Source: a candidate division FCPU426 bacterium
Lineage (GTDB): Bacteria; Oederibacteriota; JAAXVQ01; JAUVAV01
DNA length: 53,227 nucleotides
Assembly (NCBI GenBank): GCA_030591525.1
Contig: JAUVAV010000020.1
Location: 1-53,227, forward strand
Direction: 5' to 3'
Below, piece by piece: positions 45,244 through 53,227 of the stretch. The translations under genes and the position numbers were made by a program. Below the pieces are notes generated by a model that did no database searches, was not told the DNA's origin, and worked only from the letters and a program-made list of their open reading frames with translations. How positions within the stretch are numbered: position 1 is the first letter of the stretch; each line of letters starts with the position of its first letter.

Positions 45244-46203
45244 TTATAAGCCGAGCTTTGCTTTTAATAACTCGGCGGCTTGGCTGCGCTTTTTCCCGGA
45301 CATTTTGTTCACGTTTACAAGCTTCCATTGGATTGCGGGAAATTTATCAATGTCTTTAACTCCCGACAACTCCCATTTGGGTGCGCCTTCCTTAATTGAA
45401 AGTAGAAACAATTTCTCATCACGCGTCAAAGATGTTTTAATTTGTGTGATGAGTGTATCTCGCGCCTGGATTAATTCCCGGTGGGTAACTGGCAGGGTTG
45501 TCATTCCTTCAAATTCATTATTATATAAGGCTCGAAAATCCTTTTTCCTGGGCTCCAATAATTCGTTAATTGGTCTGCCACTGCTTGCAAGGTAAACAAT
45601 AAAAGCCTTTCGGATATCGTCAGTCAGACCCTCGTTTTTGAACAATATTTTAATATCATAAAAGTCTCTCGGATGCTGGCGGTCCAATGCTGCGCAGATT
45701 TTACCCCCGTACAAATCCGGAATGGATAAGGTATTAATAGAAGCGGACATCTGGAACAAGGTTTCTGCCTTTGCGCATAATTGACGTTCGAAGCAGGGAA
45801 AAACATTGCCGCGAATAACATAGTTTGGTTCAATTTTTATTTGACCACCCTTAGACCTCACGAATAGCTTAGCTATGTCTTTGGGTTCGCTGAAAAAACA
45901 CTTACAATCCGGCATAGCGTGTTTTATGGAAGCGGAAATCTTGTTCAGCGAATGTCGGATATTTTTTATTGATTCGCTTCTTGGTTCAATCGGCAGGTAG
46001 GTTAAATCAATATCCACCGATAGCCGGGGCAGGTCTCTTATAAAAAGATTTAAAGCGGTTCCGCCTTTTAAGGCAAAACACTTCTCCGTAGCAACCGAGG
46101 GAAGAACACGCATCATAAGCTTGGCTTGCTCATAATAGCGATGACCGATTGAATCGAAACCTTTTATTGAAAAACCAGCGCTGAAACTGCCTTTATTTCT
46201 CAT
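45244..46203 (-). CDS. AbiEii-type nucleotidyltransferase toxin
   Basis: 319 residues. The nucleotidyltransferase motif GGTALNLFIRDLPRLSVDIDLTYL and the downstream GGKICAALDRQHPRDFYDIKILF are characteristic of the AbiEii toxins, which in characterised members add nucleotides to tRNA acceptor ends and block translation. GAGGGG precedes the ATG. It follows the AbiEi-like gene by nine bases. Toxicity is inferred from family. Confidence 0.88.
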   Translation of the reverse strand: MRNKGSFSAGFSIKGFDSIGHRYYEQAKLMMRVLPSVATEKCFALKGGTALNLFIRDLPRLSVDIDLTYLPIEPRSESIKNIRHSLNKISASIKHAMPDCKCFFSEPKDIAKLFVRSKGGQIKIEPNYVIRGNVFPCFERQLCAKAETLFQMSASINTLSIPDLYGGKICAALDRQHPRDFYDIKILFKNEGLTDDIRKAFIVYLASSGRPINELLEPRKKDFRALYNNEFEGMTTLPVTHRELIQARDTLITQIKTSLTRDEKLFLLSIKEGAPKWELSGVKDIDKFPAIQWKLVNVNKMSGKKRSQAAELLKAKLGL

Positions 46204-46212
46204 TTCCCCTCA

Positions 46213-46983
46213 TTACAAAGTCGGTTTTCTTGGCACCATAATATTATATCGTACATTCAAATTACCACCCTTGACTAGTTCCCGCCTACCCTTGCCTAAA
46301 TCAATCCTGGAGAGGTCTAATTTTTTACGCCAAGCGTGGCCACAATCATCCGCCAAGTATAAAAACATACGCTTAACTTTAACCGATGTACATTTTTCAA
46401 GAAGTGTCTGAACAAGGCCGGGACGAAGAATCGTCAGTCCTTCAAAAAGCAACCGTCCTTCTTCAAAAGAACCCCGGTTGGGGAACAAATGGAGAACTTC
46501 CATAATGGCCCTTTCGGGAGATGATATTGTGATAGATAAGTTGTCGGTTTTAATTTTGGTAAGACCTTCTTTTACATCAGTAAAAAGATTTGTTGCAGTG
46601 TAATGAATTCTATTTTCCCAATGATAGGATTTAAACCAAGCAGGAAGTCTCACCCCCACCGATCCAAATAAAAATACATCGGTACCTTTTCCTAATGGCA
46701 AGAAATGTGCAAAACCTTCCAGTTGAAGTGATGTTTTACCTCCTGCATGAATCGGGAGTCTCAACTGGGATTGTATTGCAAACAGTGCCCCTGTCCAATT
46801 AATCTCATCATCGGAACGGACAAAAGCACCTCCTCCGATAGAATTTACCCATGCAGATTTTTGGTAGGATTGAATCAGTTGACGGTATATCCCCTGCTCG
46901 TTTAACCAAGAGGATACTGCCACAGCTCCTTTAGGCCAGGTTTTTAAAAGAAGGTTTATTTTTGTACCAGAATATCTATTCAT
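46213..46983 (-). CDS. AbiEi-type antitoxin/transcription regulator
   Basis: About 256 residues from the ATG at 46983 (MNRYSGTKINLLL); ATGs at 46992 and 47064 are alternatives. An N-terminal winged-helix region (AVAVSSWLNEQGIYRQLIQSYQKSAWV...GGAFVRSDD) is followed by an AbiEi C-domain (LPIHAGGKTSLQLEGFAHFLPLGKG). AbiEi proteins neutralise AbiEii and repress their own operon. TTGCAA, 17 bases and TATTAT lie directly upstream, so the transcript could be nearly leaderless. Confidence 0.82.
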   Translation of the reverse strand: MNRYSGTKINLLLKTWPKGAVAVSSWLNEQGIYRQLIQSYQKSAWVNSIGGGAFVRSDDEINWTGALFAIQSQLRLPIHAGGKTSLQLEGFAHFLPLGKGTDVFLFGSVGVRLPAWFKSYHWENRIHYTATNLFTDVKEGLTKIKTDNLSITISSPERAIMEVLHLFPNRGSFEEGRLLFEGLTILRPGLVQTLLEKCTSVKVKRMFLYLADDCGHAWRKKLDLSRIDLGKGRRELVKGGNLNVRYNIMVPRKPTL

Positions 46984-47217
46984 AATAGACATAATAGCAT
47001 AATAGTAAACTATTTGCAATAATAAGTTTAATCCAAAGCATAAATGTAAATCAATGAGAGACAAATCTGCTTGATACTAAACTAGCAGGTTAACCCCCCA
47101 TTAATAATTAGTAGTAAAATCCTTGAGTTAGCTTAGTTTCATAACAATCTAAGCCTGCCCCCGTGATACTCAACTCATCATCATTCCAATTCTACGGAAT
47201 ATTCATTATGTGTTTTT

Positions 47218-47446: not shown

Positions 47447-47605
47447 TCAACGTCCCATATTTTTCACGCTCGTCTTGCCATTCCAAATCAGTTCCACCTC
47501 CCGCTTGTCCTCAAACAATAGAAAGCGGTATTTATCCGGAAATGGCTTACCCGCCTCGACAAAGCGGATGATCTCCCGCTGTTCCTGTTCGGTCAATCGT
47601 GGCAT
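47447..47605 (-). pseudogene. truncated second copy of the small RhuM-linked gene
   Basis: 52 residues. The first 45 or so match the gene at 48750-48965, with MPRLTEQEQREIIRFVEAGK and DKYRFLLFEDKREVELIWNG identical. After GKTS the sequence switches to VKNMGR and stops. 139 bases (47467-47605 and 48827-48965) are about 90 percent identical. It may be a pseudogene or a short expressed variant. Confidence 0.7.
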
Positions 47606-47730: not shown

Positions 47731-48753
47731 TCATGGCTTTTTCTTTTTTGGCGGCGGCAGTTGCTTGACAGCGCGGTCGAAGTCGGATTCGAGTCTTTGA
47801 TCCTCGATTTTACGAAACTCAACGAACTCGCGTTCCGCGTGGCTTCTGGCCAACTCGGCCGAGACTTTACCCGCGTTCTGCAATATCTTCCGGTCGTTCA
47901 AGGTCAAAAAACCCTCCAGCTTCGTGATCCAATCGCTCATCGTCATGGCTATCCGGCGCTCGGCCTGGCCCTCGGCAAAGATGAGATACTGCTCGACGAG
48001 ATTATTGAGCGCACGCAGATCTTCTTCGTTCAAATAGTTCTTCGCGATGGAGACGTCCGCTTTGCGGACACGCGCCCCTTCCCAGTTGGTGAGGCCCATG
48101 TTCGGCATTTTTCTGTCAGCGCGGGACAAGATCACCTCAGCGGCAGTCCGGCCGTGAATAGCGTAGTGCACCTTGTTTTGCACCGTGGCGAAGAACTCCT
48201 GAGTGAGCGGGTGGTCCTGATTGTAGTCAATGCTCGTGGCGTAGATATCGGTGATCTTCTGGTAGAACCGCCGCTCACTGGTGCGGATGTCCTGAATGCG
48301 CCGGGTGAGTTCCTCGAAGTAGTCATTGCCAACCTTCGGATTTTTCAGGCGCTCGTCATCCAGTACAAACCCCTTGACGATGTACTCCTTGAGCTTGTCC
48401 GCAGCCCACTGGCGGAAGCGCACAGCCACGGGACTGCGCACCCGGAAGCCCAGGGCCAGGACCATGTCGAGGTTGTAGTAAGCCACCCCGTACTGTTTAC
48501 CGTCAATGGCAGTTGTTCGGAAAAGCCGAACAACTGAATCTTGCTCCAGTTCCTTGTCCTCAAAGATGTGTTTGATGTGCTCGCTGATCGTTCCCTTGGC
48601 CTTGCTGAACAGCTCTGTGAGCTGTTTCTGATTGAGCCAGACGGTCTGATCTTCGAGGCGCACATCGAGCTTCGTGCGGCCATCCTCACTCTGGTAGATG
48701 AGTATCTGGCTCATCTTAATACTCGTATCCTTTGCGGCTTTGCGCGCGTTCAT
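47731..48753 (-). CDS. RhuM family protein
   Basis: 340 residues, start at 48753, where ATGA overlaps the small upstream gene's stop. The N-terminal domain (QILIYQSEDGRTKLDVRLEDQTVWLNQKQLTELF, then ISEHIKHIF) and YYNLDMVLALGFRVRSPVAVRFRQWA are diagnostic of RhuM/virulence-associated proteins (PF13310). These contain a Bro-N-like or HTH part and are often near mobile elements and restriction genes. The biochemical role is not established. The C-terminus is basic (PPPKKKKP). Confidence 0.88.
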   Translation of the reverse strand: MNARKAAKDTSIKMSQILIYQSEDGRTKLDVRLEDQTVWLNQKQLTELFSKAKGTISEHIKHIFEDKELEQDSVVRLFRTTAIDGKQYGVAYYNLDMVLALGFRVRSPVAVRFRQWAADKLKEYIVKGFVLDDERLKNPKVGNDYFEELTRRIQDIRTSERRFYQKITDIYATSIDYNQDHPLTQEFFATVQNKVHYAIHGRTAAEVILSRADRKMPNMGLTNWEGARVRKADVSIAKNYLNEEDLRALNNLVEQYLIFAEGQAERRIAMTMSDWITKLEGFLTLNDRKILQNAGKVSAELARSHAEREFVEFRKIEDQRLESDFDRAVKQLPPPKKKKP

Positions 48754-48965
48754 AGTCTTCCCCTTTTGGCACGCGGTTCGTCCACCTGCTCGATGACCTG
48801 GAAGGGCAGGACGATATTGCAGACCTCGCTCGTCTTGCCATTCCAAATCAGTTCCACCTCCCGCTTGTCCTCAAACAGCAGAAATCGGTACTTATCCGGC
48901 AACGGCTTGCCCGCCTCGACAAAGCGGATGATCTCCCGTTGTTCCTGTTCAGTTAGACGGGGCAT
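48750..48965 (-). CDS. small acidic-basic protein coupled to RhuM
   Basis: 71 residues, not recognised beyond a family resemblance to short proteins found before DNA methyltransferases. It begins MPRLTEQEQREIIRFVEAG and ends with VLPFQVIEQVDEPRAKRGRL. The stop overlaps the RhuM start (ATGA). It occurs twice in the window, the second copy truncated. A regulatory or antitoxin-like role would be a guess. Confidence 0.7.
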   Translation of the reverse strand: MPRLTEQEQREIIRFVEAGKPLPDKYRFLLFEDKREVELIWNGKTSEVCNIVLPFQVIEQVDEPRAKRGRL

Positions 48966-49144: not shown

Positions 49145-50839
49145 TTAGGTGTTAATCTCTATATAATTTGTTTCTTGAAACCATTCTTTGATTCTCACTT
49201 TTGATTCGTTTGACAGATGAGAAACGCAAACTATTGCTAAGTTGTTTTTTGCCCTTGAACAAACAACATAAAATAAATTGCTTGTTCTATTATGTCTCTG
49301 TTCATTGGCAAGGTTATTCGAGAAGTAATCATCGAAGTTGTAGCTCTGTTTCCAAGAATTATCATCTACAATAACCAATACGTTATTGAATTCGTCACCT
49401 TTTGTGTTGTGCTTTGTACTGAATGGGGTGTTATCTTGCTGCACTTGGTATAGTCGGATGAATTGGGAATAATCAATGGCCATTAATTTTTCACAGAACT
49501 CTCTTTTTTCTTCATCTTCTAAGTCGTAATTTTTCATCTTTTCTGTTGGTGCCAGGATTTTATTTTTTGCTACATAATCAATTACTTCTTTTATTTTCTT
49601 GGTTGTTCTTATGTCGATAAGGTTTTTCAATAGTTCATTGAGCTTCTTTTTGGATTCGAATGTTCGAATCTCGAATGATATTTTCTTCAATAATTGTTGA
49701 ATTTTATTTTCTTTAAATAGGGTGGCTATTTCTTCTATGTCAACTAAATAGTCTGTATGCGGGCTCATACCTCGGTTGTCTTTGTTCTTGGTAAGCACGT
49801 CTGCATTCTTTGAGTGTATTTGGTATAATTCTTCGTATTCATTTTCTTTGGCAATGAACCTGTGTGTCAAATAAAGTATCTTTACGTCATCAACAGAATA
49901 GAGCTTCCACTTGTCCTTCAAGTACTGCTCGATAAATAGCTTTGCGCTGAAGTTAGTTGTATCTGATTTGTGGAAGAAAAGTATTTCTCCTTTTCGAGTG
50001 TTTGTTGGCGGTTGATATTGCTGGATATCGCTTCGTATTTTATTAAGTAATTCTATTACCTCTTTGGAAGATCGATAGTTCTCGGTCTTCTGTATTAACT
50101 TCAAATTATGCTCTGTGGGAATTTCCCCAATCCCTGTATCATAAATTTGTTGCCGGTTATCTCCAAAGAAACCTAATGTAAAATCTTGTTTTCCTTTTAA
50201 GTGATTAAGCAGAATAGTAATGGTTTTTTCCTGCGTATCTTGATATTCGTCAACAAAGATTATCGGGTACGTATCGGTAATGATTTTTCTAATCTTTGGG
50301 TAGCTTGAGAATATTTTTTCAGCAATTACTATAAGGGCATCGTGGCTGAATTTGCCTTTTTTATAGTTAGGAAAATTATCGTAATTAATCTTTATGGTCT
50401 TTGAATTTAAGTTTTCGATGGCTTCTTTGTATCTTGCTATCTTTAATTCTGACTTTTCTCTTCCTATTACGGACCTTGTGGTAAGCTTGCTTAGGGCTTC
50501 TTGTTCTTTTGCAAGTTTTTCTTCTAGTAGTTCTAAGAATTTGACTTTTAGCACCGATTGAAACCTTTTAATGCACCCCCAAAGGAAATCATGGATTGTA
50601 CTGACATGGATAAGTTCGTTATGTTCTGTTCTCTCTATAATCTCGTCTTTGGCGATGTTTGTATAAGTGATGCAAACAATTTTCTGTCCATTATTCTTTA
50701 ATTCTTTGCTTTTAGTCTCTAAGATATAATTCAAAGCCTGTACTAATGTCCAAGTTTTGCCGCTTCCTGCCCCAGCGTCCAAGACAAAGCTTTCTTTATT
50801 TTTAATGCATTCAAATACCTGTTCTTCTACGCTAGCCAT
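49145..50839 (-). CDS. gajB: UvrD/Rep-family helicase, Gabija GajB-like
   Basis: 564 residues, SF1 helicase. Walker A DAGAGSGKTWTL (21-32), motif Ia ITYTNIAKDEI, Walker B FVDEYQDTQEK (about 194), motif III GFFGDNRQQIYD (about 224), motif IV NYRSSKEVIELL, motif V HNTKGDEFNNVLV and motif VI FYVVCSRAKNNLAI all present. AGAGGG precedes the ATG. It overlaps the OLD-family gene by 13 bases. In characterised Gabija systems GajB works with GajA in anti-phage defence. AT-rich relative to the housekeeping genes. Confidence 0.82.
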   Translation of the reverse strand: MASVEEQVFECIKNKESFVLDAGAGSGKTWTLVQALNYILETKSKELKNNGQKIVCITYTNIAKDEIIERTEHNELIHVSTIHDFLWGCIKRFQSVLKVKFLELLEEKLAKEQEALSKLTTRSVIGREKSELKIARYKEAIENLNSKTIKINYDNFPNYKKGKFSHDALIVIAEKIFSSYPKIRKIITDTYPIIFVDEYQDTQEKTITILLNHLKGKQDFTLGFFGDNRQQIYDTGIGEIPTEHNLKLIQKTENYRSSKEVIELLNKIRSDIQQYQPPTNTRKGEILFFHKSDTTNFSAKLFIEQYLKDKWKLYSVDDVKILYLTHRFIAKENEYEELYQIHSKNADVLTKNKDNRGMSPHTDYLVDIEEIATLFKENKIQQLLKKISFEIRTFESKKKLNELLKNLIDIRTTKKIKEVIDYVAKNKILAPTEKMKNYDLEDEEKREFCEKLMAIDYSQFIRLYQVQQDNTPFSTKHNTKGDEFNNVLVIVDDNSWKQSYNFDDYFSNNLANEQRHNRTSNLFYVVCSRAKNNLAIVCVSHLSNESKVRIKEWFQETNYIEINT

Positions 50840-52848
50840 ATTAATCCCTCTTTGATATACGTGGGAACGAGCCAGTCATCCTTGCTGATATTAAGCAGGT
50901 CGAAAGCAAATTCTGTTTTCTTCCTGTTTCTATCAATAAATTCTTGTATCTCGAACGATTTTGTTTTGATTTCGCCGCTACCTTGATAACCTTTTAATTG
51001 GTACTTAATGCTTAGCAATTTTACCTTGTTATTAAAAACATAAGCGTGATTGTCTATGATAAAGGCTTCCTCAAAGCTTCTTCCGCATTTTATTGGTCCT
51101 GTTCCGGTATTTACGTTGTTTTGATAAGTTACCCTGATCATCCCGTCAGCGCTTTCCTTTGAAACTGTTTCTTTCAAAAGCTCATCTATCTTTTTTTCGC
51201 AGGGTATCCAATCTTTCAAGGTAACATTGCTCGTTAAAAGTTTTTTGCCGCTTTCCGCTTCTGCCTTCTCAGTCGAATCATGTTTTACAGAATCTATATC
51301 GGTTATGATAAGAGTCTTTATACCTATGAATTCTATGAGCTCCTTAAATTTATTTATGTATGCACCACCGATTTCGATGGAGGAAATATATTGCTTTGAC
51401 AGTTTGCAAGCCTTGCTTTCTTTTTCAATTTTTTCAATAAATAGAGGCAAAAGAATCCTTTCAACTGTCCCTTCAAATAAAATAGCTTTATCAGCAAAAA
51501 ACAGGTCACATTTTCCCAATGTCAAATATTGCCGCAAGAATTCTTTTGTCTCTTTCTTTTTCTCAATCTCTTCTGCTGACTCTTTCTCTGTCAATTTCTT
51601 ATTAAATTCCATTAAATCCTTAACAATAGCCGTGTTTGTTTTCTGTACAGGCATGAAATAGCGTATAGTTTCCAAATTTGATGCGGAAAGAATGTGCGGA
51701 GAATGTGTCGTCAATATCACTTGTGCATCTAGCTTTACATCCTTTAAGAATTTAATAATATTTTTTATAAAAACACTTTGCATCTGAGGGTGCATGTGTG
51801 CTTCTGGCTCTTCAATAAAAATGAGGTTCAGATTATTTTTTTTATCTTTAATTTCGTTATAAAAACCGATTAGCTGAGCTATCATGCAAATAAGATTGCT
51901 ATATCCTAATCCGTTATATTTTTCTGGAAGGCTTTTTCCATCATGATTATAAAATAGCTTAACATTGTTTGTGAACAATATTTCAGGATCGAGTTGCGAT
52001 TTAAGTTCTACCTTTTCCGTTCCCATTCCTGGGAACCCGAAAGTGTTAAAGTATGTCACGAAGGACGAAAAAAAAGTCTTCAACTCCCCATCAATATTTC
52101 CGCTTGCAGTTTCCAGTGCCTGCAAAAACTCATCTGACTTCTTTTCATCTGTCTCATTCTCATTTCTGAATTGAGACTGGAATATTTTTGAAAGCTTTGA
52201 ACGTGACTCGGCATTACTATCATCTAAACCCCGTTGAGCATCTATGAATTCTGTCTGAATCAATTTATTGATATCTGCACGAGAAACATTTTCCGCCTCT
52301 TCCGCTTCCGAATATGGCCTGATATTAATCTTATAATGATCCTGATAATGCGACTTAATCTTTTTAAATAACATTTCATCGGAGTAAGTCAAATCCCTCA
52401 GTGCTTCTTGCAAATTCTTAAGAAACACCTCTGTAGAATCAGGTGCATATTCGCACAATATTGTAATTTCACTGCTTTCCTCTAAGCTGGTAAACAAAGG
52501 CCGTATATTAGACCAGTTATCATTCTCGCCATATTTGATAGTTAAAAATAGCTGGATTTTAGGAATTTCTTTCTGAATTTCTAATGTTTTATGTTCTTTA
52601 TTCTCAGAAGTTATTTCCTTATATGACTTATAGACTTTAATAAAATCACAATAGCTTGCGAACGAAAAGTCCTCGAAATCAAAAGGAGGTTTTTTATTTG
52701 ATTCCTTTAAGAAAACATTAAAAACAGAAGACAAAGAAGTTTTTCCTGAATTATTCTTCCCAACAATAGATGTGGCGTTCCTATCAAACGTTATTGTTAC
52801 GTTATGCAGCAACCTGTAATTTTTTATCTCTGCCTTAATTAATTTCAT
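50827..52848 (-). CDS. gajA: OLD-family ATPase/TOPRIM nuclease, Gabija GajA-like
   Basis: 673 residues. ABC-type ATPase: Walker A IVGKNNSGKTSLSS (about 28-41), a Walker B region LIFIEEPEAHMHPQ (about 345) and the H-loop LTTHSPHILSAS. The TOPRIM nuclease follows: LFEGTVERILLP (about 458) and IITDIDSVKHDS with the DxD pair (about 515). This order defines class 2 OLD proteins. About 100 residues longer than the founder GajA, with a variable C-terminus. GAGG precedes the ATG. With the downstream helicase it matches a Gabija operon. Confidence 0.83.
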   Translation of the reverse strand: MKLIKAEIKNYRLLHNVTITFDRNATSIVGKNNSGKTSLSSVFNVFLKESNKKPPFDFEDFSFASYCDFIKVYKSYKEITSENKEHKTLEIQKEIPKIQLFLTIKYGENDNWSNIRPLFTSLEESSEITILCEYAPDSTEVFLKNLQEALRDLTYSDEMLFKKIKSHYQDHYKINIRPYSEAEEAENVSRADINKLIQTEFIDAQRGLDDSNAESRSKLSKIFQSQFRNENETDEKKSDEFLQALETASGNIDGELKTFFSSFVTYFNTFGFPGMGTEKVELKSQLDPEILFTNNVKLFYNHDGKSLPEKYNGLGYSNLICMIAQLIGFYNEIKDKKNNLNLIFIEEPEAHMHPQMQSVFIKNIIKFLKDVKLDAQVILTTHSPHILSASNLETIRYFMPVQKTNTAIVKDLMEFNKKLTEKESAEEIEKKKETKEFLRQYLTLGKCDLFFADKAILFEGTVERILLPLFIEKIEKESKACKLSKQYISSIEIGGAYINKFKELIEFIGIKTLIITDIDSVKHDSTEKAEAESGKKLLTSNVTLKDWIPCEKKIDELLKETVSKESADGMIRVTYQNNVNTGTGPIKCGRSFEEAFIIDNHAYVFNNKVKLLSIKYQLKGYQGSGEIKTKSFEIQEFIDRNRKKTEFAFDLLNISKDDWLVPTYIKEGLIWLA

Positions 52849-52926
52849 GATTTTCCTCTTTGTTCATTGTTCAGACCCCCTCTATATCTTATTTCAAGAT
52901 TTGATTATTTCTCCCCATAACGCCTG

Positions 52927-53227
52927 CTACAGCGAAACAACATCCGCCTCCCCAATAAAAGCGTACCTTTCCGGCATACATGTAAAAATGACAATCTGAC
53001 ATTCCTTGGCTGCTACCGCCAGTACAGCACCCATTAATTTAAGACGCTCCGTGTCGGTAGAACCCAGCGCATCATCCAAAATAACCGGTGTGCCGCCATC
53101 CTGCGCCACTATCATGGAACAGGACAACCGGTAAATTAGAGAAAGCTGTTCTTTTGTGCCTACGCTAAGGTAATCGAAGGGAACCGTGACATTGGAGATT
53201 GTTCTGCCGGCAATCTTTAAATCATCG
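52927..53227 (-). CDS. C-terminal end of a YhaN/SMC-like ATPase (partial)
   Basis: Runs off the right edge; 99 residues visible. ABC signature-like LSVGTKEQLSLIYRL, Walker B PVILDDALGSTDTERL and a final QIVIFTCMPERYAFIGEADVV are typical of YhaN-like and related SbcC/SMC-type ATPases, which often pair with a metallophosphatase nuclease. The start and any partner gene are outside the window. The gap to the OLD gene is 78 bases. Could be part of the defence island. Confidence 0.75.
   Translation of the reverse strand, partial: DDLKIAGRTISNVTVPFDYLSVGTKEQLSLIYRLSCSMIVAQDGGTPVILDDALGSTDTERLKLMGAVLAVAAKECQIVIFTCMPERYAFIGEADVVSL

Follow-up and report, generated by a model that had tools for sequence, protein, structure and literature searches.

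Near the right-hand end of a 53,227-base contig (G000:C56), which was analyzed whole and is referred to here as the window, lie two overlapping genes for an OLD-family nuclease and a UvrD-like helicase. The contig belongs to an assembly of 2.7 Mb in 91 contigs that is estimated to be 96% complete. Gabija is a common two-gene bacterial anti-virus defence, and the question raised by this locus is whether the pair is a Gabija system and, if so, whether the size of its two proteins sets it apart from Gabija systems that are already known.

Gene Organization and Sequence Motifs

Both genes are on the minus strand. The first, gajA (50827–52848), encodes a class 2 OLD nuclease of 673 aa composed of an ABC ATPase and a TOPRIM domain, as determined by PADLOC, Pfam, a profile search and a fold match. 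The second, gajB (49145–50839), encodes a UvrD-like SF1 helicase of 564 aa, based on PADLOC, Pfam and a profile search. The genes form one operon in the order gajA then gajB, with reading frames that overlap by 13 bases (50827–50839, minus strand), an arrangement that suggests translational coupling. The coordinates, gene order and overlap in the initial annotation agree with these reading frames. Upstream of gajA is a leader (52849–52921, minus strand) that was also found, by blastn and local alignment, in an 88%-identical copy of the operon in another assembly (L003, see below). The leader probably carries a ribosome-binding site and perhaps includes a promoter.

The key motifs that had been recognized in both proteins are present, and all catalytic motifs could be located. 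The ATPase of GajA has Walker A (GKNNSGKT at residue 30), Walker B/D-loop (EEPEAHMHP at 346) and H-loop (TTHSPH at 380) motifs, and its TOPRIM domain has E459/E463, G495 and a DxD motif (D517/D519). GajB has the motifs GAGSGKT at 23, TYTN at 58, DEYQDT at 197, NYRSS at 254, KGDEF at 480 and YVVCSRAK at 524. The ATPase, TOPRIM and helicase residues of the two proteins are invariant in alignments of 26–27 homologs, including E459, E463, G495, D517 and D519 of GajA (26 homologs), and every helicase motif of GajB is kept.

The contig ends 379 bases from the start of gajA and truncates the neighboring gene there, and decayed methyltransferase remnants lie on the other side of the pair, a setting that could point to a non-functional relic or to an assembly artefact. 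Against this, both frames are full length with zero internal stops, all catalytic residues are conserved and the cassette recurs, with 88% DNA identity, in a different neighborhood in L003, an independent assembly. We therefore consider a relic or artefact very improbable.

Assignment of the Pair to Gabija

The proposal that these genes encode Gabija was borne out by PADLOC, in which both proteins scored best on the GajA and GajB profiles. GajA matched PDLC00063 with an E-value of 5.2e-180 (residues 1–673 on profile positions 1–660 of 679), while GajB matched PDLC00135 (2.8e-154) and PDLC00113 (1.2e-116 over residues 3–562). Pfam identified AAA_15 (1.9e-56) and OLD-like_TOPRIM (6.1e-18) in GajA, and UvrD-helicase (2.2e-20) in GajB. 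For profile matches of this kind, such E-values exclude chance. No specific Gabija name for the pair was obtained from NCBIfam or PHROGs. Single-sequence searches of solved structures retrieved only distant OLD or PtuA chains for GajA and only distant PcrA or UvrD chains for GajB; profiles built from the 26–27 homologs reached the solved Bacillus cereus GajA (3.6e-24) and GajB (1.3e-24).

The AriA (2.2e-56) and Old (4.1e-30) profiles also match GajA, via the shared ATPase and TOPRIM domains, as they would if the nuclease were a class 1 OLD or another ABC-ATPase defence protein (AriA of PARIS, or PtuA of retron/Septu systems) situated beside an unrelated housekeeping helicase. However, the scores of the GajA profiles are much better and their matches span all of the protein. 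The helicase is itself GajB by profile, its gene overlaps gajA, and in the homologous loci retrieved the two occur together and vary in step; we assign this alternative a negligible probability. PARIS was rejected on the grounds that the partner is a UvrD-like helicase, not an AriB effector, and that the AriA match spans only the shared ATPase (residues 1–387). Class 1 OLD nucleases stand alone without a helicase, whereas gajA overlaps gajB here, and a retron/Septu identity (PtuA) was ruled out by the profile searches.

The pairing itself is conserved. Where a retrieved homologous locus was long enough to tell, gajB almost always comes directly after gajA, and the commonest junction among 43 homologous pairs is an overlap of 13–16 bases. 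Inter-locus distances for GajA and GajB are correlated with r = 0.98, a value that was reached in 0 of 2000 shuffles in a Mantel test (none exceeded 0.28), and the two genes have therefore been inherited as a unit. One locus, from Lachnospiraceae bacterium MD329 (L036 8001–12101), has GajA and GajB in a single open frame of 1366 aa, which is either a genuine gene fusion or the result of a frameshift where the two genes normally overlap.

Size of GajA and GajB

The founder proteins have 578 aa (GajA) and 494 aa (GajB) (PMC10822852), and the initial annotation was correct that both proteins here exceed them, GajA by 95 residues and GajB by 70. It had also proposed that this enlargement is unusual and may hold a new sensing or inhibitory segment, an expectation that our comparisons do not support. 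Full-length homologs in the genome collection have 647–748 aa (GajA) and 531–653 aa (GajB), so that 673 and 564 aa are ordinary for this branch. The PADLOC GajA profiles of 660–750 aa already cover this size, the best of them having 679 residues, and there are plasmid and phage relatives of like size, one of which is annotated as Gabija. It is the well-studied B. cereus proteins that are shorter than every full-length branch member found here.

By motif spacing, the 95 extra residues of GajA are distributed approximately as follows: 58 from Walker A to Walker B, 22 from there to the TOPRIM glutamate, 5 from that glutamate to the DxD motif, and 10 beyond it. The largest share thus lies in the region of the ATPase where B. 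cereus GajA has its dimerization helices, and it is in this region that the confidence of the GajA model is lowest (residues ~205–310). No extra Pfam domain and no separate confident domain in the AlphaFold model were found in GajA. One new domain was thus rejected as the source of the extra length, since the residues are scattered among four or more sites and the length is common to the clade.

These data also bear on whether the pair could be a long-form relative of Gabija with a mechanism of its own, in which the extra residues are a sensing or inhibitory element. The added length of both proteins, and the structural identity of only 14–18% to the B. cereus proteins, would leave scope for such differences, but the scattered distribution of the GajA residues, the lack of an additional Pfam or separately modeled domain, and the fact that the length is shared by the whole clade and by PADLOC profiles already available make this highly unlikely. 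We conclude instead that the pair is a complete, ordinary copy of a known kind of system.

Active Site and Predicted Structures

The active-site residues of B. cereus GajA, E379, E383, D432 and D434 (PMC10781630, PMC10822852), fall on E459, E463, D517 and D519 in the profile alignment, and we infer that G495 is the counterpart of G409. The stretch aligned to B. cereus GajA stops before its catalytic residue K541; an invariant lysine near the C-terminus, K644, is the likely counterpart, judging by its conservation.

In Foldseek, the three top matches to the AlphaFold model of GajA (pLDDT 83, pTM 0.79) were all chains of B. cereus GajA (8u7i, 8x5i and 8sm3; 1.6e-21, TM ~0.5). The best matches to the model of GajB (pLDDT 89) were PcrA, UvrD and Rep, with B. 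cereus GajB lower in the ranking at 3.5e-13. The structure prediction that had been suggested as a check thus links GajA to its B. cereus namesake, while the model of GajB on its own is closer to PcrA/UvrD. Because identity to the B. cereus proteins is 14–18% in structure-based alignments and overall TM-scores are ~0.35–0.5, assembly and activation may not match those of the B. cereus system in detail.

Base Composition and Transfer of the Operon

The operon has a GC content of 34.3%. Windows of 3.7 kb between 1 and 44 kb of the same contig have a mean of 50.6% GC and a minimum of 48.1%. A 229-kb sample of the genome's other contigs served as the baseline in place of the whole genome; here the mean is 48.6% and the minimum 38.7%, and none of 354 windows is at or below 34.3%. 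This AT-richness had been taken as consistent with transfer. A lower GC content than the flanking sequence is, however, shared by 43 of 44 related operons. AT-richness by itself is therefore weak evidence, and we dropped it as sole proof of recent transfer.

Stronger evidence comes from bacterium BP5.bin76 (L003, JAJXWI010000050.1), whose copy of the cassette aligns with this one in blastn over 3,802 positions with 88% DNA identity. The shared cassette extends from 5 bases past gajB to ~73 bases before gajA, where the blastn edge (L002:8922) corresponds to window position 52921. Two flanking genes of L003 were compared: for one, the best match in this genome has only 27% identity, and for the other no match was obtained. 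The GC content of the L003 flanks also differs from this genome, that of the upstream flank being ~38%. Based on a cassette common to both sequences and on unlike flanking genes, transfer is well supported, and it is on this basis that the earlier claim of transfer stands.

Related pairs at 61–67% protein identity occur in two MAGs, one from Planctomycetes and one from Heimdallarchaeota. The same-genus genome G001 lacks gajA, and among four other genomes of the family one (G005) carries no more than a divergent copy. Taken together, we are confident that this is an intact anti-phage Gabija operon of a long-GajA branch that was acquired as a compact cassette of ~3.8 kb. The locus changes nothing about what Gabija is; its value is in showing clearly that Gabija moves between distant lineages as a minimal cassette of just its two genes.

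Genomic Neighborhood

Downstream of the operon are an AbiEi/AbiEii-type pair (45244–47064, minus strand; Pfam, PADLOC), with members of nucleotidyltransferase toxin and antitoxin families, and a RhuM-family gene (47731–48846, minus strand) that matches the PADLOC candidate defence family PDC-S05 (1.4e-140). An AbiEii-type gene also adjoins the Gabija pair on a Pontibacter plasmid (L076). The RhuM gene is flanked by two truncated starts of a site-specific DNA methyltransferase (47465–47605 and 48753–48965, minus strand), which sequence comparison showed to be 91% alike over 141 bases; the longer is ~81% identical to rhizobial plasmid sequences. These are probable remains of a restriction-modification system.

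On the other side, the contig end cuts a gene of which a C-terminal fragment remains (52927–53226, minus strand). It resembles SMC/DNA-repair-type AAA ATPases, with 49% identity to an ATPase from a plasmid of Tsukamurella; searches with it returned plasmid ATPase relatives only, with no family and no credible solved structure. It lies outside the cassette common to L003. With the AbiE-type, RhuM and methyltransferase sequences, the Gabija pair seems to make up a small defence island, in part decayed, where a run of housekeeping genes ends.

Proposed Mode of Action and Self-protection

By analogy with established Gabija biology, GajA tetramers would be kept inactive by cellular ATP and would recruit GajB. 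The resulting complex, expected to be 4:4 and to form via the 1A/1B domains of GajB, would engage linear or processed phage DNA, and the ATPase/helicase of GajB together with the two-metal TOPRIM nuclease of GajA would cleave or disable that DNA, so that replication stops. On the same analogy we infer activation, DNA cleavage and phage protection, which in Gabija needs both genes, for this pair.

One preprint proposes that Gabija attacks linear DNA that is not attended by RecBCD and is non-abortive (PMC12407980), which contradicts the earlier abortive model of nucleotide depletion; our data favor neither. No clear AddA/RecB was found among the four UvrD-like helicase hits in this 96%-complete assembly, and the published RecBCD-based model of self-protection is consequently not directly transferable. 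Another contig (G000 C61; L081 3326–6256) encodes a UvrD-like helicase of 976 aa with a C-terminal PD-(D/E)XK nuclease domain, possibly an AddA/RecB. It is conceivable, though we consider it unlikely, that the long-GajA branch uses its lengthened dimerization and linker stretches for a rule of assembly or activation different from that in B. cereus, and works here without a protector of the RecBCD/AddAB type.

Comparison with Known Systems

The Gabija system of B. cereus VD045 (578/494 aa; PDB 8SM3, 8JQB, 8WY4) has the same gene order and domain layout as the pair described here, with the same ATPase/TOPRIM and SF1 helicase motifs and the same TOPRIM active-site residues, but its proteins are 95 and 70 residues shorter and only ~14–18% identical in structure-based alignments. 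The PADLOC profiles are closer in size, with no notable difference: PDLC00063 and PDLC00065 (679 and 670 aa) align with GajA end to end, and PDLC00135 and PDLC00113 (603 and 579 aa) are of the size class of GajB, which aligns end to end with PDLC00113. An annotated pair of like length with overlapping genes (GajA 647 aa, GajB 660 aa) is carried by the Pseudomonas filamentous phage PfAC02b (OR790969.1) and is 29 and 26% identical to GajA and GajB, respectively; it differs in being phage-borne. Class 1 OLD, represented by Thermus scotoductus OLD (6P74), shares the ABC ATPase and TOPRIM fold with GajA, but unlike gajA its gene stands alone without a helicase partner. The nearest relative found is the L003 copy, which has the same 13-base overlap and a similar leader and differs in its neighborhood and base composition.
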